Source: Anaerolineaceae bacterium (GTDB taxonomy: Bacteria > Chloroflexota > Anaerolineae > Aggregatilineales > Phototrophicaceae). Taken from it: a DNA stretch of 64,000 nucleotides. Made by a program: the position numbers and the translations under genes. The stretch spans positions 34,488 through 98,487 of the forward strand of contig WGMX01000005.1 in NCBI GenBank assembly GCA_016124855.1, read 5' to 3'. The notes below the pieces were generated by a model. The model ran no database searches. It saw only the letters and a list, made by a program, of their open reading frames with translations, and was not told where the DNA came from. Position 1 is the first letter of the stretch, and every line of letters begins with the position of its first letter. Below, piece after piece: positions 37,521-54,761 of this stretch.

Positions 37521-38636
37521 ATGGAACAGGATACCTTCGCTTTCATCATCCATCCCATCCAAATCAAGCGCGATGTCGCCCGTAAATATCCCTTCCTCGG
37601 CAAAATCCTAACCGAACCGCAGATCAATTTTTTCTCGCGCTTTTTCCCGCCCGTTTATCTCTCCGAGGTCAACGGCATCATCTCTCAATCCACCGGACGC
37701 GAACTCAAAGGCTGGCTCATTGCCTGCCCCTTCACCCCACCCACCATGATGAGCGTTCCCGTCGAAGTCGCCTATAAAAAGATCGTCGCCTGTGGTCACA
37801 TGGCTGAAGAACTCGGCGCGAAACTGCTCGGACTCGGCGCCTATACCTCGGTCGTCGGGGATGCCGGACAAACCATCGCCGACCGCCTCCAACTTCCCGT
37901 CACCACTGGAGATAGCTACACCATCCTCATGGCCGTCGAAGCCATTAAAGAAGCCGCTCGCGTCATGGATATTTCGATGAAAGAGGCCACTGTTGCCGTC
38001 GTCGGAGCTACCGGAGCTATCGGTAAGACCTGTGCCCTTATGCTTGCCCGTTCCTGTACTAAACTTATCCTCGTTGGTCGCCGTGAGGATGCCGTCGAAC
38101 AGGTTCGTGAACAGTGTCAGGGTCGCGGAGCCGAAGTCATTGCCAGCACCGATATGAATTCGATTTATCAGGCTGATCTCATCCTCACAGTGACCAGCGC
38201 GGTTCACGCTGTTATTTATCCCCAACATCTCAAACCCGGTTCGGTTGTCTGTGATGTTGCCCGCCCGCGTGATGTCTCTAAACAGGTCGCCGCCCAACGC
38301 AATGATGTGCTGGTCATCGAAGGCGGCATGATCGAAGTCCCCGGTCAGCCCGACTTCCACTTTGACTTCGGCTTTCCGCCCCGCATGGCCTATGCCTGCA
38401 TGGCTGAAACAATGGCGCTTGCCCTCGAATCCCGTTACACCGATTACACCATCGGCAAAGACATCTCCGAACATCAGGCCAATGAAATCGGTGCAATTGC
38501 CTCTAAACACGGCTTCAAACTGGCTGGATTTCGCAGTTTCGAGGCCGAAGTTAGCCCGCAGGCCATCACCGCCGTCCGTGAACGCGCCTCGGTCAATCGC
38601 AAAACATGGTCGCCCGCACCCTACCCACAAACCTGA
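37521..38636 (+). CDS. Long-chain acyl-ACP reductase-like/NAD(P)-binding Rossmann dehydrogenase
   Basis: AFIIHPIQIKRDVARKYP N-terminus, VAVVGATGAIGKTCALMLAR Rossmann motif, overall size like cyanobacterial AAR. Confidence 0.65.
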   Translation: MEQDTFAFIIHPIQIKRDVARKYPFLGKILTEPQINFFSRFFPPVYLSEVNGIISQSTGRELKGWLIACPFTPPTMMSVPVEVAYKKIVACGHMAEELGAKLLGLGAYTSVVGDAGQTIADRLQLPVTTGDSYTILMAVEAIKEAARVMDISMKEATVAVVGATGAIGKTCALMLARSCTKLILVGRREDAVEQVREQCQGRGAEVIASTDMNSIYQADLILTVTSAVHAVIYPQHLKPGSVVCDVARPRDVSKQVAAQRNDVLVIEGGMIEVPGQPDFHFDFGFPPRMAYACMAETMALALESRYTDYTIGKDISEHQANEIGAIASKHGFKLAGFRSFEAEVSPQAITAVRERASVNRKTWSPAPYPQT

Positions 38637-40757: not shown

Positions 40758-41684
40758 ATGAGTAAAGGCCGCATTTTAGTTGTTGAAGATGATATTGATA
40801 TTTCGAACATGCTTCGTATTTATTTTGGCGGGCAGCAGTACGAGGTACAAATCGCGCCGCGCGGTGGCGACGCGCTCCAAATGACGCGTAAACAGCTTCC
40901 GAACCTCATTATTCTGGACATCATGCTGCCAGACATGAACGGTTATGATGTTTGCCGTGAACTGCGTACCACCAGCCGCACCAGCCATATCCCGATTATT
41001 TTTCTCACGCAAAAAGACGAGCGTAGTGACAAAATAGCGGGCTTAGAATTGGGCGCGGATGATTACATCACCAAACCCTTTGACATTGAAGAACTCAAAC
41101 TCCGCGTTCAGAATGCTATCGCAGCCGCCAACCGCACCACCAATACCGACTCGAAGTCTGGTTTGGCAACCGGTCGTCTCATCGAAGACCATCTGCGCGA
41201 ACTCATGCGTCAGGGGTCACAGTGGACGTATATCGACCTAAAGATCAACCAGCTTGATCCGTTTAGTGAAGTCTACGGTTTCGTCGCTGCTGATGAAGTC
41301 ATGCGCTTTATGGCTCTCATGATGGGCGATGTCGTTGATGAATATGGCACGCCGGACGATTTTCTCGGTCATCCCGGTCGCGATAACTTCGTGCTAATAA
41401 CCCACACCAATGATGTCGACAACCTAAAAACACGGCTCGTCGAAAAATTCGATGAAGATGTCAAACAGCACTATTCTTTCATCGACCGTGAGCGCGGGTA
41501 TATTCTCGTACCCGACAGCGCGCAGGGCGAACGTCAAGAACCGTTGATGTCGCTGTCCATCGGCTCGGTTTCGACAGCTACCCATCAATTCTCGGATATT
41601 CGTGAAATCACTGAACTTGCCGCCGAAGATCGCCGTCGTGGACTTGGTGGAGAAGTGCCACCGCCCATATTGACAGCATGGTAA
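40758..41684 (+). CDS. Response regulator, receiver domain plus degenerate GGDEF-like domain
   Basis: ILVVEDDIDISNML, LIILDIMLPDMNGYDVC, FLTQKDE, GADDYITKPF; C-terminal region has GGDEF-like layout with PGRDNF at the signature position. Confidence 0.9.
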   Translation: MSKGRILVVEDDIDISNMLRIYFGGQQYEVQIAPRGGDALQMTRKQLPNLIILDIMLPDMNGYDVCRELRTTSRTSHIPIIFLTQKDERSDKIAGLELGADDYITKPFDIEELKLRVQNAIAAANRTTNTDSKSGLATGRLIEDHLRELMRQGSQWTYIDLKINQLDPFSEVYGFVAADEVMRFMALMMGDVVDEYGTPDDFLGHPGRDNFVLITHTNDVDNLKTRLVEKFDEDVKQHYSFIDRERGYILVPDSAQGERQEPLMSLSIGSVSTATHQFSDIREITELAAEDRRRGLGGEVPPPILTAW

Positions 41685-41833: not shown

Positions 41834-44800
41834 ATGGGATTAGGATTACTTCTCTTCATAGGTGGGCTGGTCATCATTGCCGGGTTGTTCGTGTGGTCAC
41901 GGCAGCGTCAGGCCTTGGGCTTTATTCCAGCCTCCGAACCCAACTCATCCATCGACTTACCCGTCGCCTCTGGTGATGATGCGGTACTCGTTTCCCGCGA
42001 ACACGGACAGCTGGTTTTCGTCAACGAGAACGCCCGCAAATGGCTGAACATGAATGGCGGTGATCCTAGCCTCGAATACATTGCGGCTATGGCGAAACCG
42101 ACGGATAGCTTCTTGGAGCTGTTCGCCGGTCAAGGGCAAGCCTCTTTCCAATTGGGCAGCCGTTGGGTCGAAGCATCTTCGCATAACATTCCCACCGGCT
42201 CTGAAACTCGCACTGTGATTGTCATGCGCGAAATTGCTGGCAGCAGCAACCACGCGGGTTCACTCGACCTCACTTTAGCGATGAACACCATCAATGAAAT
42301 TGGCGAGACCATTAACGCCAGTATGGGACTCCAGCAGGTTTATCAAGCACTGCTGACCATTGTCATGAAGGCCATTCCAGCCCACGCCGGCGAGATTTGC
42401 ATCTGGGATGACAACACCAAGCAGTTGTTGCCTTTAGGCTGGGTTGGTGACTCCAGTTATATTATTAAACTTCAGGAATCCGGGGGAAATTACAAGTTTG
42501 GTGAAGGCATTAGTGGTTGGATCGCCCAACATTACAAGCCAGCTCTAATCACTAATGTTGCCGACGCGACTGCTGTTCAACCCAAACTACCCAACTTCTA
42601 TAAAAGTTATGTGGGTGTTCCGCTGCTGCTGGGTGAACGCTTTATCGGCACATTGGAATTGGCACACAATCAGGCCAGCGCCTTTAGCCAGCCGCAGTTG
42701 GCGATGCTCCAAGCCGTCAGCAAACAGGTTGCCATCTCCATCTATAACACCGAGTTATACGGTGAACAAGCCCAGCGCATCAACGACATGGCAACCATTG
42801 GCGCGCTCACCAACCTTAATGAAACATCGGCTGATGCCAGCTCAACTTACCTCGCGCTGAATTCCCGTATCGCCAAAATTGTGGACGCAGGCGTCGCTGG
42901 CGTTCTGATCTACGATGAAAATCGTCGTGCGCTGATGCCGGAACTTCCTTTTTACGGCTTACCGGATCAATTGGCGCAAAGTTGCGTCATCCCCTTACCG
43001 CCCGATAGCCCACAGCGCGACATCTACGAACGGCAAGATTATTGGGTGACAAATGATGTTGCCGACGAATCCCTGATTGAATCGCTTGGCCTGAAGGCCA
43101 TTTTCGGCGTAGCGGGCATCAAAAGCACAGCGCTGCTTCCGCTGCAAATTGGTGACCGTCGCATCGGCATGATGCAGATTAGCAACAAAAAATCGGCCAG
43201 CGGGTTTAACGCCCAAGACATCAAAGAAATGAAACTATTGGTGGCTCAAGCGGCAGTCGTGGTTGAAAACCTGCGGTTGCGCCAGCGTGAACTCCGCCGG
43301 GATACTGAACTCACAGGCTTGCAAGAACTCACCCAAGCCATCGGTTCTCTAAGTCGTGAAGAAGAATTCTACTTAACGATCAATGCCCGAATTGCCGCTC
43401 AAATGGACGTAACTATGTGCGGCATTTTGCTTTTCGATCATGAAAAGCACCAACTGACTGCCCAACTTCCGTTTCACGGCGTGACGGACGACTTACTTAA
43501 AGACTATCGTATCCCTCTTGCCCCCGGCAGTCCGCTGGAAAACATTTGGGACGAAGTTGATTACTGGTTTACTAACCGCGCTCAAGCGGATGCTGTTGTT
43601 TATGCGGCAGGTCTTGCTGAATTTGCTGACCGTCTCAAAGTAGATAAAACCTTGCTTGCTGTCCTCTCAGTCGGCGGGCGGCGTTTAGGTGTTGTACAAG
43701 TATCCAATAAGATTGGCGGCGAGGACTTCAACGATAAAGACGGCAAGCTGCTGCTCATTTTCGCAACGCAAGTCGCGGCAATGATCGAAAATGCCCGCCT
43801 TTACCACGACATGCAGCAAAGTGCCGAACAAGCTACAAGCCTCCGTAACGTGGCTGAACTCGCGGGTTCTGTCCTCAAGCCGGATGATCCGTTCACACCC
43901 GTATTAGCGGAGATTGCCAGCCTAACACGAAGTCCGCTGGTCTATATTAACGCGCTTGACCAGCAAGCCGGCAGTCTCATCACCTATCCAAGATGGGTGT
44001 ACGGGCATGAACTGGCTGAGCCAATTGTAATAGACGTCTTTAGCCAGAACTTCGCGAAAAGCCCGGCGATGACGCGCCAGCCCTATCTCACCAATGACAT
44101 TGCGGCTGACCCCAATGTCAGCGATTCGTACAAGCAAATTGCACAGAAATTCGGCCTCCGCACCAGCGTACAGGTTCCGCTGCTGGTCGGTGATCGCAGC
44201 TTGGGTGAACTCGGAATCGCCAACCGCGAAGATGGATCTTACGACGAAACAGACATCGAAACCATGTCTGCTATCGCCGCTCAGATTGCAGCGACCATCG
44301 AACGGTTGCGCCTTTACGAAGCCGCCGGTGACAACCTAAATCGTCGTCTCCTCGAACTGGATGCCATCTCGCGTATTAGTAATACCTTGGCGGAAACCTT
44401 AGATGTCAATCAGGTACTCGATGTCATCCGTGATGAAGCCGCCCGTGCTACCCGTGCTGATGGCAGCAGCGTGGTGCTGCTAAAATCACAGGATACGTGG
44501 GCTAAAATTGATCAGCCTGAGGTTGACCGTCGCCTAGGGGATCTCAAGCGGATGTCTGGCCTTGCCAGCATCGAATTAGAAGCTGTTTCGCGCGGTGCGA
44601 GCACCGTCCTCGTGAATGACTACGTCACGGCCTCAATGATGGCAGCCCCTCCCGGCGCGCGTTCGGCTTTGGCTGCGGCTTTCTTATACGAAGACCAAGT
44701 GGTAGGTGTAATTCACCTCTTCCATGACCGTGCCAACAACTTCGATGATCGCGCTGCGGCCTTCTTGCTGACCTTAGCCGCCAAAGCCTCTCTGGGTTAT

Positions 44801-47800
44801 GGCAATTTTATTCGCTACAAAGAGCAAATTGATCAAGGTAACCGGCTTCGTCGCCGTGTTGACCAGTTGAATGAAATCTTTGAACTGGGTCAAACACTTC
44901 AAGGTAATCTTGATCAGGTCATGCTTCTGGAAACCATTCTTGAAAGTATTCAAGACGCTCTCGGTTATACGCTGGGTGTGGTTGTACTGCTGGATAATGA
45001 AACCAATATCTTGCGCCGTACTGCGCAATTCGGTATGCCGCTCGAAGACTTTGAACGCAGCAAAGCCTATACGATGACCGAAGAAGAGCTTAATACGCTG
45101 CTGCAACCTCGTTATCAAATCAGCGAGTCGTATTTCTTTCCGGCGGAACAGGTTGCCGATTGGGGCAAAGTCAGCCTCAAACCGCTGCTGATTGATTTCC
45201 CCGGCAAACGCAATTTAACCTTTAGTCCCAGCCCCAAGCACTGGCACGATGGCGACATTTTGCTTGTTCCCTTGCACGCGCCCGATGGCCGTCTGCTGGG
45301 TGCGATGAGTCTCGACCGTCCTCAAGATAATATCCGACCTGATCGCAGCGTGATGGAAGTGCTGGAAATCTTCGCCCACGAAGCAGAAGGCAGCATTGAA
45401 AACATCCGGCTGTATTTGGAAAGCATTCAAAATGCTGAACAGGAACTTCGTCTTAATCAGATGATGGAAGCGATTTCCAGTTCGTTGGATACCACCCAAA
45501 TCGTCGAGTCGATTGCTTATGGGACGCTGCGGTTGATTCCCTTTAGCCAGATCAACGTCGCCTTGAGCGATCCTGAAACGGGTACTTACAACCTGCTAAA
45601 AACCACAATCAATAACGACAGTTCCCTCCTCACAAACCGTGAACATCGCGGGCACATTGATAACACTGCCTTGATGCAGGCCGTGATTAGTGGTCAGGAT
45701 GCGCTGTACCGTGCAGGCGATGAAACCGTTTCGGAATTTGAGGATTTGCAGACATGGCATTCACAGGGCGAGCAAACGTCGCTCATCATTCCACTGATGA
45801 CCGGTGGTAAAGCACTCGGCGCAATGCATATCGGCAGCTCGCAAACGGATACGGCAGCCTTTGAAGAATTTCGTCCACTGCTCAAACGTATCGCCAACCT
45901 TGCCGCCGTCTCTATTCAAAATGCTCACCTGTTCAATCAAGCGCTCAATTTACAGAACTTCAACGAATCAGTCGTTGAATCCATTCAGCAAGGTATTATC
46001 GTTTTGGACAAATCAGGGCTTATCTTGTCCATTAACGATTTTATGATTAACCGTTACGGTTGGAGTCAGTCTGAAGCACTGCGGCAAGATTTGTTCACTT
46101 ACAGCCCCAACTTGCTCGACATCCTGAAGGAGGATGTACAGAGTGTGCTTGAAAACGGCCTCCCGCGTGAAAAAATCGGGCAATCTACCCGTTTTGATGA
46201 CGGTAAGGTGATGGTACGCAACTTCTACACTTACCCTCTCAAGAGTGCGGATAGCATTCGCGGCGCGGTGCTGTTGGTGGAAGACGTTACCGAACGCGCC
46301 ATGCTCGAAAAAGACCTCGAAGCCCGTGCTAATCAACTCGGAGTTCTCACCGAAGTTTCTAGTCGCATTACCGCTTCATTGAATCGGGAAGCTGTTATTA
46401 ATCTGGCGCTCAATGAAATCGGTCGCGTGCTCAATTACGATACGATGACACTCTGGAGTCGTCATGGTGATGACCTCGTTCTGGAAGGCAGCAGCGGTTT
46501 TACCAGCGATCTGACTCCAGAGGATACACACCTCCGTATCAGCGCCCACCAACGAATGGGCGATGTAATCGAGCTTAAAGCGCCGTTACGAATCGATCAC
46601 CTTCTCAAGTTGGATAACCTACCCGGTGATAACGATGCGCAAAGTTGGCTAGGAGTTCCGCTGGTTAATCAGGGTAACGTAGTCGGGGTTATCGCCCTTG
46701 CCAAACAGGAAGCGCGCTTTTATGACGCGCAGGCTGAACAGGCGGCTTTTGCATTTGCTAATCAGGTGGCAATTGCCCTCGACAACGCCAATCTGTACAC
46801 AGAAGCTCAATATCAAACCGAGCGCCTAAGTTTGCTCAACCGGGTATCGGTGCTGTTAGCCCAGTCGCTTGATAGTGAAAACATTCTGGAAATCGCGCTG
46901 CGTGAAATTGCCCAGACGATCAAACTAGAAGACGCACGCGCCCTCATTTTCGAGCGAGGACTCCAAATTGGTCAGGTGGTCATGCAGTACCCGCGCGGGG
47001 ACGAACCACCGGATGAAGCTATCAACTTGAACCAGTATCCTGCCTACCAGCTTGTGAGGCGCAATGCAGCCCCTGTCATCATAGATGACGTGTCGCAGCT
47101 AGACGAGGGTGACGCGCTTCGAATAGATATGGAATCGCGCGATGTTAAAGCCTACGTGATGATTCCCATGACGGTTGCAGGACAGGTCATTGGTGCGTTT
47201 GACGCCGAAGTTAAAACATCGGCGCGTCCATTTACGCCTGAACAAATCGACCTCAGCCTCATTATCGCCAATCAGGCTGCAATTGCTGTCCAAAATACCA
47301 ACCTATTGGAACAAACCCTTATTCGTACCCGGGAACTTGAAACACTGCTGGAAGCCGCACAGGCCACAGCACTCACTCTAAATTTGGAAGATGCCTTCCG
47401 CAGCGTGGTTGACCTTATGCTGCACGCGCTTGAAATGGATGACTGCGCGGTGATGATGTGGGATAACGTGGAAAACGTTCTGGAAGTGCAAATTGACAGC
47501 ACACGAACCGATGACGGGGAAACAGTATCATCCAAAGGGACACGCTATAATCTACGACAGTATCCGGCCAAATTGAAAGCGCTGCAAGAAGCCCAAATTG
47601 TTGTTATAAACGCCAATCAAGTCAATGCGGATCCGATGGAACTCGACGAACTCAAACAATACCAGCGACGGCTGCGCGTACTGATCCCACTGGTCGTGCG
47701 CGAACAAGCTATCGGCCTGATTCAAGTTCAACAAATTGCGCAACGCCGCGAATTCAGCCATCGTGAAATCCGTTTAGCCCAAGCGCTTGGTGCGCAATCA

Positions 47801-50071
47801 GCCATTGCCATTCAAAACGCGCGTCTTTCGACCGAAACCGCAGCCCTCGTGGAAGAAGGCTTCCTCATCAACAGCCTCAGCCAATCCTTTGCTGCCACAC
47901 TTAATGTGGATGACATGATTGCCGCTGTGCGCGAACAAGTGCCTCAATTGACCAAAGCCGAACAAATGTATCTGGCACTTTATGATGAAGTCACACAAAC
48001 CATTGTCTTCCCTGTGGCCATCAAGAACGGTAAGCCCATCACAATGGAACCACGCCAGCTAAATACTGACGAAGTTTCGTTCATCATCACCCATCGTCGC
48101 TCACTGTCGCTAGGTGGTGGCAACTTCAGTAGTGATGATATGCGTCACAACTTGAATATCACCAATGGCGAACCTGATGCGCGCAGTTACCTCGGTGTTC
48201 CTGTGGCATCGGGTGATCAAGTGCTCGGCGTGTTAGCTATCCGCGATACCAATAATACGCGGGCATTTGGCATCAATGACGAGCGTTTACTGACCACCGT
48301 TGGTTCGCAGTTGGGTTCCGCCATGCAGAACGCGCTGCTGTTTGAACGAATTAACAACTTTGCCGATGAGCTGAACCAGCGTGTTAAAGAACGGACTGAC
48401 GAACTTCAGCAAGAGCGCGACCGCTTGGATATGCTGTATCGCATCACGGCTGAGCTGGCACGTACATTGGATATGGATCGCGTTTTGACCCGCGCCCTCG
48501 AAACAGTAGCGACTGCCGTCAACGCGCATGAAGGCGTTATTCTCCTGATTGATCCGCTGACAGATCGTTTGATGCCGCGCGCCGCATTACATTCAGACAT
48601 CGCAAGCTTAACCGATGGTGCGCCGGAACACCCGGCTGGGATGTTGGCCCGCTGGCTATTGGAAAATGACAACCTACTCATCGCCAATGATTTACAAGAC
48701 CAACCCTATTGGGATATTTCGGCCCCCGGAGCGGAGGACTGGCATAGTGCTTTGGCTGTGTTACTCGAAAGCAATGACGATCCTCAAGGCGTGCTGGTAC
48801 TCCTCAACCACGAGACAAAAGCCTTTACCGAAACGCAGCTTAAGTTGGTCATGGCCGCTGCTAATCAGGTGGCTGCCGCTATTAACAACGCTGACCTTTA
48901 TCACCTCATTCGCGACCAAGCAGAACGCCTCGGTACACTGGTCCGTGTCGAACAAGAAGAGTCAGAAAAGAACTCGGCTATCGTTGAAGGCATCGCTGAC
49001 GGCGTTATGCTGGCGGACTCGGAAGGCGCGATTGTCTTATTCAATGGAGCCGCCGAACGTATCCTTGAACTACAGCGCGATCAAGTTATCGGGCAATCGA
49101 TGTTCCGCTTGACTCGGTTGTTCGGGCAATCAGCGACACAATGGGCCAACAATATCGAAACATGGACCAAAAATCCTGACACTTACCAACCGGGTGAATT
49201 CTTGGAGCAAACCCTTGATCTCGGTCAGAAAGTGGTACAAGTCCATCTTTCGCCAGTTTACATCAGCGAACGTTTTCTCGGAACGGTTTCGGTATTCCGC
49301 GACATCACGAAAGAAGTGGAAGCCGACCGTATTAAGAGCGAATTTGTCTCCAACGTATCACATGAGTTGCGTACACCCATGACCAGCATTAAAGGCTTCG
49401 CTGACCTCATGTTGATGGGTGTCGCGGGACAGCTCAGCGAACCTCAAAGCGGTTTCTTGACCAAAATCAAGAACAATGCTGACCGCCTGAGCAAGCTGGT
49501 TGAAGACCTGCTCGATATCTCCAAACTGGACGCCGGTGAAGCGCTCAACATTGAAGCCGTAGATTTGCGGGAAGTTATACCCAGCGCGCTAAACAGTGTG
49601 AAGAACCGTGCTGAAAATGACCAGAAGCAGCTAAAGGTCACCGTTGACATTGATAAACAGGTTCCAGTTATCGAAGCTGACCCGCTAAAACTTATGCAAA
49701 TTCTGACCAACGTGATCGGTAACTCTTACAACTACACCTATGCCGGTGGCTTAGTCAAAATCTACGCCAAGGTTGATGCTGACCAAGAACGTGTGGTGAT
49801 CGCTATTGAAGATACGGGCATTGGTATTCCCGATGAGTTCAAACCACGCATCTGGGGACGTTTTGAACGCTATGAAGATCATGCACTGGTCATGGATATT
49901 CCCGGTACGGGTCTGGGACTATCAATTGTTCGTGAACTCGTCCTGATGCATAATGGAGATATATGGTTCGACTCCGAGTTAGGCAAAGGTACGACATTCT
50001 ATATCGGGCTTCCGGTGAAGCAGCCTAAGAATTCGCAGCAAACTCAGCAAGATGTTAGCCGGGGTCAATAA
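41834..50071 (+). CDS. Giant multi-GAF/PAS sensor histidine kinase (2745 aa)
   Basis: N-terminal TM; 12 GAF-terminal signatures such as NQVAIALDNANLYTEA; PAS segments; H-box FVSNVSHELRTPMTSIKGF; HATPase DTGIGIPDEF, GTGLGLSIV. Confidence 0.97.
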   Translation: MGLGLLLFIGGLVIIAGLFVWSRQRQALGFIPASEPNSSIDLPVASGDDAVLVSREHGQLVFVNENARKWLNMNGGDPSLEYIAAMAKPTDSFLELFAGQGQASFQLGSRWVEASSHNIPTGSETRTVIVMREIAGSSNHAGSLDLTLAMNTINEIGETINASMGLQQVYQALLTIVMKAIPAHAGEICIWDDNTKQLLPLGWVGDSSYIIKLQESGGNYKFGEGISGWIAQHYKPALITNVADATAVQPKLPNFYKSYVGVPLLLGERFIGTLELAHNQASAFSQPQLAMLQAVSKQVAISIYNTELYGEQAQRINDMATIGALTNLNETSADASSTYLALNSRIAKIVDAGVAGVLIYDENRRALMPELPFYGLPDQLAQSCVIPLPPDSPQRDIYERQDYWVTNDVADESLIESLGLKAIFGVAGIKSTALLPLQIGDRRIGMMQISNKKSASGFNAQDIKEMKLLVAQAAVVVENLRLRQRELRRDTELTGLQELTQAIGSLSREEEFYLTINARIAAQMDVTMCGILLFDHEKHQLTAQLPFHGVTDDLLKDYRIPLAPGSPLENIWDEVDYWFTNRAQADAVVYAAGLAEFADRLKVDKTLLAVLSVGGRRLGVVQVSNKIGGEDFNDKDGKLLLIFATQVAAMIENARLYHDMQQSAEQATSLRNVAELAGSVLKPDDPFTPVLAEIASLTRSPLVYINALDQQAGSLITYPRWVYGHELAEPIVIDVFSQNFAKSPAMTRQPYLTNDIAADPNVSDSYKQIAQKFGLRTSVQVPLLVGDRSLGELGIANREDGSYDETDIETMSAIAAQIAATIERLRLYEAAGDNLNRRLLELDAISRISNTLAETLDVNQVLDVIRDEAARATRADGSSVVLLKSQDTWAKIDQPEVDRRLGDLKRMSGLASIELEAVSRGASTVLVNDYVTASMMAAPPGARSALAAAFLYEDQVVGVIHLFHDRANNFDDRAAAFLLTLAAKASLGYGNFIRYKEQIDQGNRLRRRVDQLNEIFELGQTLQGNLDQVMLLETILESIQDALGYTLGVVVLLDNETNILRRTAQFGMPLEDFERSKAYTMTEEELNTLLQPRYQISESYFFPAEQVADWGKVSLKPLLIDFPGKRNLTFSPSPKHWHDGDILLVPLHAPDGRLLGAMSLDRPQDNIRPDRSVMEVLEIFAHEAEGSIENIRLYLESIQNAEQELRLNQMMEAISSSLDTTQIVESIAYGTLRLIPFSQINVALSDPETGTYNLLKTTINNDSSLLTNREHRGHIDNTALMQAVISGQDALYRAGDETVSEFEDLQTWHSQGEQTSLIIPLMTGGKALGAMHIGSSQTDTAAFEEFRPLLKRIANLAAVSIQNAHLFNQALNLQNFNESVVESIQQGIIVLDKSGLILSINDFMINRYGWSQSEALRQDLFTYSPNLLDILKEDVQSVLENGLPREKIGQSTRFDDGKVMVRNFYTYPLKSADSIRGAVLLVEDVTERAMLEKDLEARANQLGVLTEVSSRITASLNREAVINLALNEIGRVLNYDTMTLWSRHGDDLVLEGSSGFTSDLTPEDTHLRISAHQRMGDVIELKAPLRIDHLLKLDNLPGDNDAQSWLGVPLVNQGNVVGVIALAKQEARFYDAQAEQAAFAFANQVAIALDNANLYTEAQYQTERLSLLNRVSVLLAQSLDSENILEIALREIAQTIKLEDARALIFERGLQIGQVVMQYPRGDEPPDEAINLNQYPAYQLVRRNAAPVIIDDVSQLDEGDALRIDMESRDVKAYVMIPMTVAGQVIGAFDAEVKTSARPFTPEQIDLSLIIANQAAIAVQNTNLLEQTLIRTRELETLLEAAQATALTLNLEDAFRSVVDLMLHALEMDDCAVMMWDNVENVLEVQIDSTRTDDGETVSSKGTRYNLRQYPAKLKALQEAQIVVINANQVNADPMELDELKQYQRRLRVLIPLVVREQAIGLIQVQQIAQRREFSHREIRLAQALGAQSAIAIQNARLSTETAALVEEGFLINSLSQSFAATLNVDDMIAAVREQVPQLTKAEQMYLALYDEVTQTIVFPVAIKNGKPITMEPRQLNTDEVSFIITHRRSLSLGGGNFSSDDMRHNLNITNGEPDARSYLGVPVASGDQVLGVLAIRDTNNTRAFGINDERLLTTVGSQLGSAMQNALLFERINNFADELNQRVKERTDELQQERDRLDMLYRITAELARTLDMDRVLTRALETVATAVNAHEGVILLIDPLTDRLMPRAALHSDIASLTDGAPEHPAGMLARWLLENDNLLIANDLQDQPYWDISAPGAEDWHSALAVLLESNDDPQGVLVLLNHETKAFTETQLKLVMAAANQVAAAINNADLYHLIRDQAERLGTLVRVEQEESEKNSAIVEGIADGVMLADSEGAIVLFNGAAERILELQRDQVIGQSMFRLTRLFGQSATQWANNIETWTKNPDTYQPGEFLEQTLDLGQKVVQVHLSPVYISERFLGTVSVFRDITKEVEADRIKSEFVSNVSHELRTPMTSIKGFADLMLMGVAGQLSEPQSGFLTKIKNNADRLSKLVEDLLDISKLDAGEALNIEAVDLREVIPSALNSVKNRAENDQKQLKVTVDIDKQVPVIEADPLKLMQILTNVIGNSYNYTYAGGLVKIYAKVDADQERVVIAIEDTGIGIPDEFKPRIWGRFERYEDHALVMDIPGTGLGLSIVRELVLMHNGDIWFDSELGKGTTFYIGLPVKQPKNSQQTQQDVSRGQ

Positions 50072-50496: not shown

Positions 50497-51501
50497 ATGA
50501 GTGCTATTAGCATTGGCGGCGAACTCGTCCATTATGAAGTACTGGGACGTGGACGACCAGTTATTCTAATTCATAGTTGGGTTGGTTCGTGGCGATATTG
50601 GGTTCCCACAATGCAGAATCTGCAACTCAAGTACCGTGTCTACGCCATTGATTTGCACGGCTTTGGTGATTCGAGCAAGAACCCGCAGAAGTACACTATC
50701 GATAATCAGCGAAAACTCCTATCTGACTTTATGCAGGCAATGGGTATTCCGAAAGCGGCGATCATCGGACATGGTTTAGGCGCGTGGGTCGCAGCAGAAT
50801 ATGCACGTGTGTTTCCTGATCAGGCTCCCCGTGTCATGCTTATTAGTGCTCCGCTGTTCGACATGCCCAACCTCGACCGCCGAACACGACCGGGACGTGG
50901 AAACGCCCCTGTACACAGCCGCACCGCTTTTGCAGATGTGCATCCAGAAGCGACGATTATGAATTCCAATATCCGCACGGCGATGTTGGAACGGTTGCGT
51001 GCGGCAAGTGCCAGCGGTCAAGTCTCAACCGAATACATGCCGGAGATTCCACATGCTGACTCCGGAACACGTTACAATCAACTGCTCGATATTATTGGGA
51101 GCAGCAGTCCAGAAGCGCTTTTACAACGCTGCCTAAAACGCTCTGATCCCGTGTACGCAAAGCTGGAATTGGATTTGCCCAAGACTGATCCTCAAGCGCT
51201 GCGTGTAAGCGCTATTGAATACGATTGTGGACGTTTTCTGGACACGGTCTGGCAGCTGCCCATGCAGACGCTTGTACTTCACGGCGAAGAGGACGGACTT
51301 ATCGATAGGCCGAATGAGTCGGTGTGGAACTACATTACCTATGATAAGGAAGATAAACTTCTGCCTATCCCTCTGCCTAACATCAAACACTTCCCCATGC
51401 TGGAATACGACCGCTTTTACAGGTTGGTCAACGAATTCTTGGAAGTGTCCGACATCAGCAAACTGGAAGTGACAGAACGGTGGAAGCGCCGAAGCCGCTA
51501 A
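50497..51501 (+). CDS. Alpha/beta-hydrolase
   Basis: VILIHSWVGSW, AAIIGHGLGAWVAAEYAR, IKHFPMLEYDRFY. Confidence 0.9.
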   Translation: MSAISIGGELVHYEVLGRGRPVILIHSWVGSWRYWVPTMQNLQLKYRVYAIDLHGFGDSSKNPQKYTIDNQRKLLSDFMQAMGIPKAAIIGHGLGAWVAAEYARVFPDQAPRVMLISAPLFDMPNLDRRTRPGRGNAPVHSRTAFADVHPEATIMNSNIRTAMLERLRAASASGQVSTEYMPEIPHADSGTRYNQLLDIIGSSSPEALLQRCLKRSDPVYAKLELDLPKTDPQALRVSAIEYDCGRFLDTVWQLPMQTLVLHGEEDGLIDRPNESVWNYITYDKEDKLLPIPLPNIKHFPMLEYDRFYRLVNEFLEVSDISKLEVTERWKRRSR

Positions 51502-53354: not shown

Positions 53355-54761
53355 ATGGAAACGACTCCCCAAGAGAATCTGTCGATAAGGCGCAACCTTA
53401 AACTTGGCCTTTTCCACCTCGGTTCGAGCATGGCGGACATCATCATTACCGGGCTGTGGAATCGTGTGATGATAAGTGATTTGGGTTATGCGGCGACTCC
53501 CGTAAGCTTGTTGATTAGCCTTCGTTATTTCCTTGCGCCACTGGGCATCTGGGCGGGGCGCATTTCCGACCAGCGCAGCGTTGGTGGCTTTCGGCGCATG
53601 TTCTGGATCGGCACCGGGCGCGCGATGATGGCGATTGGCATTTTGATTCTGGGTGTTGCGACCACCTCACTGGCACAGGGCGGTGGCATAACCGGAATGG
53701 CCGGAAATGATACCGCGCAGTGGATTGGGATCGTTCTAGCAATTCTGTTGTTCAGTTTGGGTAACAGCATTTCAGGCGGAACCTTCTTAGCTCTGCTGTA
53801 TGACCGAACACCGGAACATCAACGCGGGCGGGCAATCGGCATCGTATGGACTTTCCTGTTAATCGGTTATGCAATTTTTGGTGTGATCTTCGGAAGATTG
53901 CTGCCGCATAATGAAGGTGTTGCAGGATTGAGTTTCGCGCCCGAAGCGCTCCAAAATGTGTTTATCATCGCGGCTGTTTCGATGGCGATTTTGTGGCTCA
54001 TTTCAATGATTTACGAAGAACGCCGCGCCAATAAAGGTGGCGAGACTTATACCAGCGGCAGCCAGCAGGAATATTCGACATCTGCGCTGGCGGATTTAAA
54101 GTTGGTGATCAACAACCGTGCAATGCGCTACTTCATGCTGTTCCTCGCACTGTCAATGTTTTCGGCTTTCTCGCAAGATCTGATCCTAGAACCTTTCGGT
54201 GGTGATGTCTTCCAGATGGATGCCGCCCATACGACACGATTTAACTCCTATTGGGGAACAACCGCGATCATCGGTATGATTCTTTTTCTATTTCTAGCGC
54301 GCCGCTACAAATCGCTGAATAATCGGGTTCTATCCTATGCGGGTGTCGCCATTCTTACGGCGGCTTTCGGCATCTTCACCATTTCTGCGCTGGCGCAAAT
54401 ACGCCCGCTGGTGACATGGGGGCTGCTGGTGTTCGGGATCGGGCAAGGCATTTGGACGGTGGGTGCAAACGGCTTGATGATGGATATGAGTCCTAATGGT
54501 CGGGCTGGCACGTTCCTCGGCTTCTGGACACTGGTTGTCACCTTCGCGCGGGGCGGCGGGCAAGGTGCTGGCGGTATCATCCATGATATTGGGATCAGCG
54601 TGTTTGGCAGCCCTTCTGCCGCTTACGGAATTTGTTTCCTTGTTGGTACAGTCGGCTTAGCCCTTTCAATCGTCATGCTGCGGCAAGCGAACATCAAAGC
54701 ATATAAGGCCGAGCATGTTCCGACCGATGCGGTTGGCGTGCTGGCTACGGCTTTGGATTAA
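53355..54761 (+). CDS. PucC/BCH-family MFS transporter
   Basis: LFHLGSSMADIIITGLWNRVMISDLGYAATPVSLLISLRYFLAPLGIWAGRISDQ; 12 TM-like segments. Confidence 0.85.
   Translation: METTPQENLSIRRNLKLGLFHLGSSMADIIITGLWNRVMISDLGYAATPVSLLISLRYFLAPLGIWAGRISDQRSVGGFRRMFWIGTGRAMMAIGILILGVATTSLAQGGGITGMAGNDTAQWIGIVLAILLFSLGNSISGGTFLALLYDRTPEHQRGRAIGIVWTFLLIGYAIFGVIFGRLLPHNEGVAGLSFAPEALQNVFIIAAVSMAILWLISMIYEERRANKGGETYTSGSQQEYSTSALADLKLVINNRAMRYFMLFLALSMFSAFSQDLILEPFGGDVFQMDAAHTTRFNSYWGTTAIIGMILFLFLARRYKSLNNRVLSYAGVAILTAAFGIFTISALAQIRPLVTWGLLVFGIGQGIWTVGANGLMMDMSPNGRAGTFLGFWTLVVTFARGGGQGAGGIIHDIGISVFGSPSAAYGICFLVGTVGLALSIVMLRQANIKAYKAEHVPTDAVGVLATALD

Follow-up and report, generated by a model that had tools for sequence, protein, structure and literature searches.

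Histidine kinases that carry cytosolic GAF modules upstream of a HisKA kinase core are represented by DosS and DosT, which have two GAFs, and are best known from the cyanobacteriochromes, in which a tandem GAF array is likewise joined to a kinase and the GAFs are as a rule far fewer than the twelve described here. Tandem GAF domains are also present in the CyaB2 adenylyl cyclase and in PDE2, PDE5 and PDE6, and a receiver is joined to a GGDEF-related domain in regulators of the PleD type. How inputs from more than two or three sensors are integrated by one kinase is an open question. The stretch of DNA analysed here (the window, 64,000 nucleotides of contig WGMX01000005.1 from an Anaerolineaceae bacterium of the Chloroflexota) encodes a GAF-array kinase that, by its domains, belongs to the known kind of GAF-containing HisKA kinases, yet is set apart from those described by its scale, its fixed module order, its conserved locus and a series of relatives that differ in module number. 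Unlike DosS and DosT, it is part of a family with 3 to 17 GAFs whose order and locus are conserved across much of the phylum, a bilin signature was not found in it, and its similarity to the heme kinase DevS is weak and partial; unlike the cyanobacteriochromes it has no conserved chromophore-type cysteine, and its partners differ. With the CyaB2 and PDE tandem GAFs, the closest folds to GAF1-7, it shares a partial NKFDE motif in GAF2 and GAF3, whereas its kinase output, its twelve modules and the incompleteness of that motif distinguish it from them. The locus probably specifies a two-component system of the Chloroflexota, at the level of the phylum, in which a membrane-tethered, dimeric rod of GAF modules combines several small-molecule signals at a single kinase. 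No description of the locus or system was found in the literature searched (open-licence papers only), and it is a conserved, apparently uncharacterised regulatory locus of this phylum.

The kinase gene is a single intact reading frame with an ATG start and a product of 2745 aa (Table 1). Pfam recognises GAF_2 in 12 distinct stretches (E 5.4e-109; 361 bits, the whole-protein cut-off being 28.6), GAF_3 in 12 and GAF in 10, with scores far over the curated cut-offs for every GAF family, and a profile built from the protein's own 12 GAF units returns 12 full-length domains, a circular result whose number nevertheless matches that of Pfam. The protein exceeds typical kinases in size. A sequence-only reading of this DNA had described a giant multi-GAF histidine kinase on one ORF, with far more sensor modules than a typical kinase, and had listed twelve short GAF-terminal signatures; all twelve are found in the order given, at residues 297-309, 471-482, 645-657, 816-828, 983-995, 1182-1194, 1355-1367, 1643-1655, 1813-1825, 1987-1999, 2158-2170 and 2344-2356, and its reservation that HMMs might recognise only a few GAF domains does not hold. 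PAS families match in two stretches, one between GAF7 and GAF8 and one ahead of HisKA (residues 2501-2568), which is followed by HATPase_c (residues 2616-2729). The two later PAS-like regions and the kinase core of that reading are matched in this way by Pfam, while the PAS-like segment that it had placed near the N-terminus has no clear Pfam PAS match. His2510, Asn2630, Asp2660, Phe2677 and Gly2693 are invariant among 107 aligned kinase sequences. At the N-terminus, where a transmembrane segment had been proposed, an uncharged hydrophobic stretch (residues 1-22) does precede positive residues (WSRQRQ), and a comparable stretch is present in all 23 inspected N-termini. The protein has one N-terminal transmembrane helix and no periplasmic domain, so sensing by the kinase is predicted to be cytosolic.

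Table 1. Features of the GAF-array kinase locus, in window coordinates, with the basis of each assignment
Feature	Position	Strand	Basis
Response regulator, 308 aa, receiver + degenerate GGDEF; the partner most constantly found with the kinase	40758..41684	+	Pfam, alignment, gene order
GAF-array histidine kinase	41834..50071	+	ORF, Pfam, full-length orthologues
N-terminal transmembrane helix, residues 1-22, periplasmic domain absent	41834..41899	+	Hydrophobic stretch + WSRQRQ
GAF1	42284..42760	+	Pfam, unit profile; exact order-wide clade, support 0.975
GAF2, sister of GAF3, NK..F..D signature	42791..43279	+	Unit profile; best own clade 12/16
GAF3, sister of GAF2, NK..F..D signature	43313..43804	+	Unit profile; best own clade 19/26
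GAF4	43835..44317	+	Unit profile, module tree
GAF5, in other members of the phylum often followed by a GAF6-type module	44360..44818	+	Unit profile, module tree
GAF6, enlarged distinctive subtype	44870..45415	+	Unit profile; best clade 21/22 labelled modules
GAF7	45449..45934	+	Unit profile, module tree
PAS between GAF7 and GAF8, limits approximate	45941..46303	+	Pfam PAS stretch; limits from sequence and inter-GAF gap; low-confidence model
GAF8	46340..46798	+	Unit profile, module tree
GAF9	46829..47308	+	Unit profile, module tree
GAF10, holds the sole conserved cysteine, C1871	47339..47830	+	Unit profile, cysteine alignment, module tree
GAF11, the best-conserved of the modules in the family	47861..48343	+	Unit profile, position HMMs, module tree
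GAF12, kinase-proximal; in nearly all class/phylum members the last module matches this one best	48428..48901	+	Unit profile, module tree
PAS ahead of kinase core	48971..49318	+	Pfam PAS, PAS_4, PAS_9 within residues 2380-2495
HisKA, phosphoacceptor His2510	49334..49537	+	Pfam; His in 107/107 aligned sequences
HATPase_c, invariant at the key positions of its N, G1, F and G2 boxes	49679..50020	+	Pfam; 107/107
CheY-like single-domain response regulator, 125 aa	50099..50476	+	Pfam; Asp52 in 101/101
Alpha/beta-hydrolase-fold protein, Gly for nucleophile Ser	50497..51501	+	Pfam, alignment, gene order

The locus consists, in order, of a regulator with a receiver and a pseudo-GGDEF domain, the GAF-array kinase, usually a CheY-like receiver, and an alpha/beta-hydrolase, with a thiamine pyrophosphokinase often behind and an acyl-ACP-reductase-like protein often ahead. 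A raw tally over 87 kinase loci gives 87 for the regulator and 87 for the CheY-like protein (both inflated by receiver-to-receiver cross-hits), 79 for the hydrolase, 53 for the thiamine pyrophosphokinase and 46 for the reductase; three of the regulator counts (L009, L011, L052) are matches to the CheY gene, on contigs truncated upstream. The regulator adjoins the kinase upstream in loci whose contig extends far enough, and nearly every locus of the order has the CheY-like gene behind the kinase, though not L003 (contig end) or L084. In the window, the long-chain acyl-ACP-reductase-like protein (present in the 46/87 loci noted above) is upstream at 37521-38636, its TIGR04058 match being below cut-off.

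The 308-aa regulator is matched by Response_reg (E 5e-29) and GGDEF (E 2e-5) in Pfam, and Asp54 of its receiver is kept in 101/101 aligned sequences. Like the PleD-type regulators it combines a receiver with a GGDEF-related domain, and PleD is its best PDB match, in the receiver only. Unlike PleD, it has G-x-DNF at the GGDEF site (GRDNF in the window, nearly always G[R/S/N/G]DNF in the aligned homologues) and a conserved family-specific motif, HYSFxDRERG, and no I-site was seen in the window's pseudo-GGDEF domain; the GG(D/E)EF sequence taken to mark an active diguanylate cyclase is lacking, and such an activity is doubtful for this neighbour. At the nucleophile position of the hydrolase-like protein, 100 aligned copies have Gly (68), Ser (15), Asp (10), Ala (6) or Thr (1), the catalytic His being kept in 99/100 and the acid in 98/100, and the window protein lacks the G-x-Nu-x-G nucleophile motif of active alpha/beta hydrolases. 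Because Gly is so frequent while the His and the acid are kept, most, not all, of these copies look like pseudoenzymes, and the neighbour of the kinase is possibly one that binds a ligand.

The distribution of the system extends well beyond the relatives of the window (for which order, family and genus are used here as kinship labels). The N-terminal 659 residues of the kinase are matched in 112/151 sampled relatives at E <= 1e-30, nearly always once. With the regulator as query, 175/396 genomes of the class match at E <= 1e-45, some of which may be paralogues, as do 59/400 of the phylum sample at E <= 1e-70. In all 20 class loci that were fetched, a non-random choice spread over families, a GAF kinase with 3 to 11 GAFs lies directly or closely downstream of the regulator; one of these kinases is cut by the contig end and two are split into several consecutive kinase genes. 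The same arrangement of a regulator and then GAF kinases, with up to 17 GAFs and 3651 aa, is found in 7/7 fetched loci of other phylum lineages. Here, the hydrolase-like gene is present in six (L136, L137, L139-L142), and the CheY-like gene in L136 and L142 only, being missing from the Chloroflexaceae-like L137 and L139-L141; L138 is truncated at the end of the locus. Two of these genomes may be those of Herpetosiphon aurantiacus and Chloroflexus aurantiacus, and the locus probably occurs in cultured Chloroflexota genera. In some members of the class and phylum (L123, L127, L138) the array is spread over several consecutive GAF kinases within the same locus. The kinase is absent from some genera of the window's own family, among them g12, g17 and g19, in which a first look with the N-terminal part of the kinase gave 0-8 candidate places, compared with roughly 30-100 for relatives; on these counts a lineage-wide loss of GAF proteins may have taken place in the three.

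The twelve GAF modules share 12-34% pairwise identity, the highest values belonging to GAF2/GAF3 (34%) and GAF8/GAF9 (27%), which are residual sister-like pairs, and Tandem Repeats Finder detected no tandem DNA repeat. Because identity is this low, the modules of the window kinase are best regarded as ancient and not as recent copies. Colinear orthologues at 60-89% identity were found by a contig scan in Anaerolineae/Chloroflexi MAGs of other projects; six full-length ones have 2731, 2737, 2738, 2738, 2739 and 2744 aa, and overall the orthologues in other assemblies span 2725-2788 aa, their 12 GAFs being placed as in the window kinase. Position HMMs derived from 27 twelve-module orthologues recover the same order, 1 to 12, for the modules of the order's other families, positions 2 and 3 being hard to distinguish there. 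The phylogeny of single GAF units was inferred with FastTree from 270 modules of 21 proteins, weakly scoring modules being left without a label; the HMMs that supplied the labels were built on the same data, so the tree is not independent of the labelling. Positions 1, 4, 5, 7, 8, 9, 10, 11 and 12 form exact clades (support 0.958-1.0), the best clade for position 6 takes in 21/22 labelled modules and misses one, and positions 2 and 3, whose best clades are 12/16 and 19/26 singly, jointly form an exact clade with support 0.97. As these position clades span the order's families, the tree implies that the twelve-module set is older than the split of those families.

Within this framework the number of modules is variable, from 3 to 17 GAFs in the kinase family with alike flanking genes. 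In the window's own family, most 11-module proteins are without position 9, and 10-module ones without 7 and 9. In other families of the order, GAF6 is followed by an additional 6-like module, and as many as four further modules, most of them 9-like, stand between GAF7 and GAF8, the largest arrays in the order reaching 17 GAFs and 3646-3666 aa. Beyond the order one-to-one mapping of modules breaks down; GAF5-, GAF6- and GAF12-type matches are the commonest there, several members being without the GAF5- and GAF6-types, and in many members of the class and phylum no GAF2/3-type module can be recognised. Of the expansion by tandem duplication that had been suggested from the sequence, module gain thus does occur in the family, but the modules of the window kinase itself are too divergent to be its recent products.

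Linker length, taken as the distance between consecutive GAF domains by HMM positions, is confined to a few values. Junctions shorter than 60 residues fall into two classes modulo 7 in 913/914 cases with the first HMM and in 1003/1004 with an independently aligned one, counts that are not independent since linker lengths are largely inherited. The lengths seen with the latter are 11, 15, 18, 22, 29, 32, 36 and 53, with one exception of 42, and a post-hoc estimate on distinct lengths alone puts the chance at roughly (2/7)^8 x 6, about 3e-4. The rule also holds in 29/29 junctions of other GAF proteins and kinases of the window's genome; it is general to the GAF kinases of the same genome and not special to the GAF-array family. 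Hydrophobic positions recur periodically in the linkers, and length steps of 4 and 7 residues are compatible with an uninterrupted coiled coil. Discrete linker lengths have been reviewed for sensor kinases, with similar signatures between consecutive sensor modules, and discrete-length coiled-coil linkers between such modules are regarded as a route to signal integration (PMC6798134). AlphaFold models of residues 140-1330 and 1375-2500 (single chains, shallow alignments of 8 sequences each; mean pLDDT 60, pTM 0.27-0.29, low inter-domain confidence) consist of GAF-like alpha/beta domains linked by long helices of 28-57 residues, mostly about 45. Their top Foldseek matches are tandem GAF domains of CyaB2, PDE2A and PDE5A, plus phytochromes. 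The models support the predicted GAF fold and helical junctions rather than any dimer geometry.

In the mechanism proposed here, twelve GAFs in fixed order would feed via a PAS domain into the HisKA/HATPase kinase. The kinase would be a parallel dimer in which the C-terminal helices of each GAF continue into the first helix of the next, forming a coiled-coil spine. Several small molecules, binding to individual GAF pockets, would cause a twist or a register shift of this spine, and the shifts would combine along it to set the balance between kinase and phosphatase. Phosphate would then move to Asp54 of the pseudo-GGDEF regulator and to Asp52 of the CheY-like protein, and lineages would adjust the system through the gain or loss of entire modules, with the linker register kept. 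Multi-ligand integration by such an array, already raised by the sequence-only reading, is plausible. A fuller version is put forward tentatively, at somewhat less than even confidence: an undescribed Chloroflexota system with a tethered rod of up to 17 GAFs, which would integrate many metabolic signals, be accompanied by a pseudo-hydrolase and a pseudo-GGDEF protein, and gain or lose modules by register-preserving indels. For such a rod the length would be of the order of 50-110 nm, estimated from helices of about 45 residues per module. The homologous series of 3 to 17 modules, with mostly constant partners and constant catalytic residues, amounts to a natural test and permits module number, module identity and linker register to be tested directly.

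The same series can also be read to mean that most GAFs are spacers, the array serving as a ruler or scaffold that fixes how far the kinase stands from the membrane while a few modules (for example GAF1, GAF5-6, GAF11 and GAF12) sense. Because the flanking genes stay the same while the GAF number varies so widely, many modules would be dispensable; conservation is among the lowest in GAF4 and GAF7, which have few invariant residues, and the widest-recurring matches are of the GAF6- and GAF12-types. This account is nonetheless rather unlikely, as each position keeps its own 14-41 invariant residues across divergent genera and its identity is held across families, which a mere spacer would not need. 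Within an integrating rod, some GAF modules could be non-binding spacers.

It is improbable that the protein is a cyclic-nucleotide sensor in which the GAF2-GAF3 pair is the real input, as in the tandem GAFs of phosphodiesterases, and the remainder accessory. A check for cNMP motifs gave a divided result: the sisters GAF2 and GAF3, the only modules in which this was seen, keep a partial signature (N-K...F...D), yet the final E of NKFDE is missing from both. The GAF2-3 profile does match PDE5 (E 3e-5) and PDE10 GAFs, but with weak scores of about 26 bits, and a PDB profile search for ligands of GAF5-6 and GAF2-3 returned weak GAF hits only, which allow no ligand assignment. CyaB2 and PDE tandem GAFs head the Foldseek matches for GAF1-7, although these reflect the general tandem-GAF fold, and the failure to recognise a GAF2/3-type module in much of the class and phylum also argues against it as the essential input.

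A bilin- or heme-based array for light or gas, of the cyanobacteriochrome or DosS kind, is very improbable, even though multi-GAF kinases are best known from the former and phytochromes are among the Foldseek matches. The near-absence of cysteine (four in 2745 aa, the sole conserved one being C1871) disfavours a bilin array; the suggested check for chromophore cysteines thus gave no bilin-type pattern, and a photoreceptor array was rejected for want of conserved chromophore-type cysteines. The similarity to DevS is weak and partial, and confined to the end of GAF3. An assembly artefact, which the sequence-only reading had named as a possible refutation, or a recent tandem duplication might be suggested by the draft state of the genome (84 contigs, contamination estimate 9.08), but has a negligible likelihood and is set aside, given modules only 12-34% identical, no DNA repeat, and orthologues with the same 12-module order in many independent assemblies.

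Other GAF proteins and neighbouring genes were encountered in the course of this work. The window's own genome has 89 GAF matches and encodes further giant GAF proteins, one of 2738 aa with 10 GAF hits (L148:2613-10829, contig C57) and one of 1846 aa with 8 (L149:2260-7800, contig C68). Downstream of the locus, at 53355-54761 of the window, is an MFS transporter with a strong Pfam PUCC score (231 bits).
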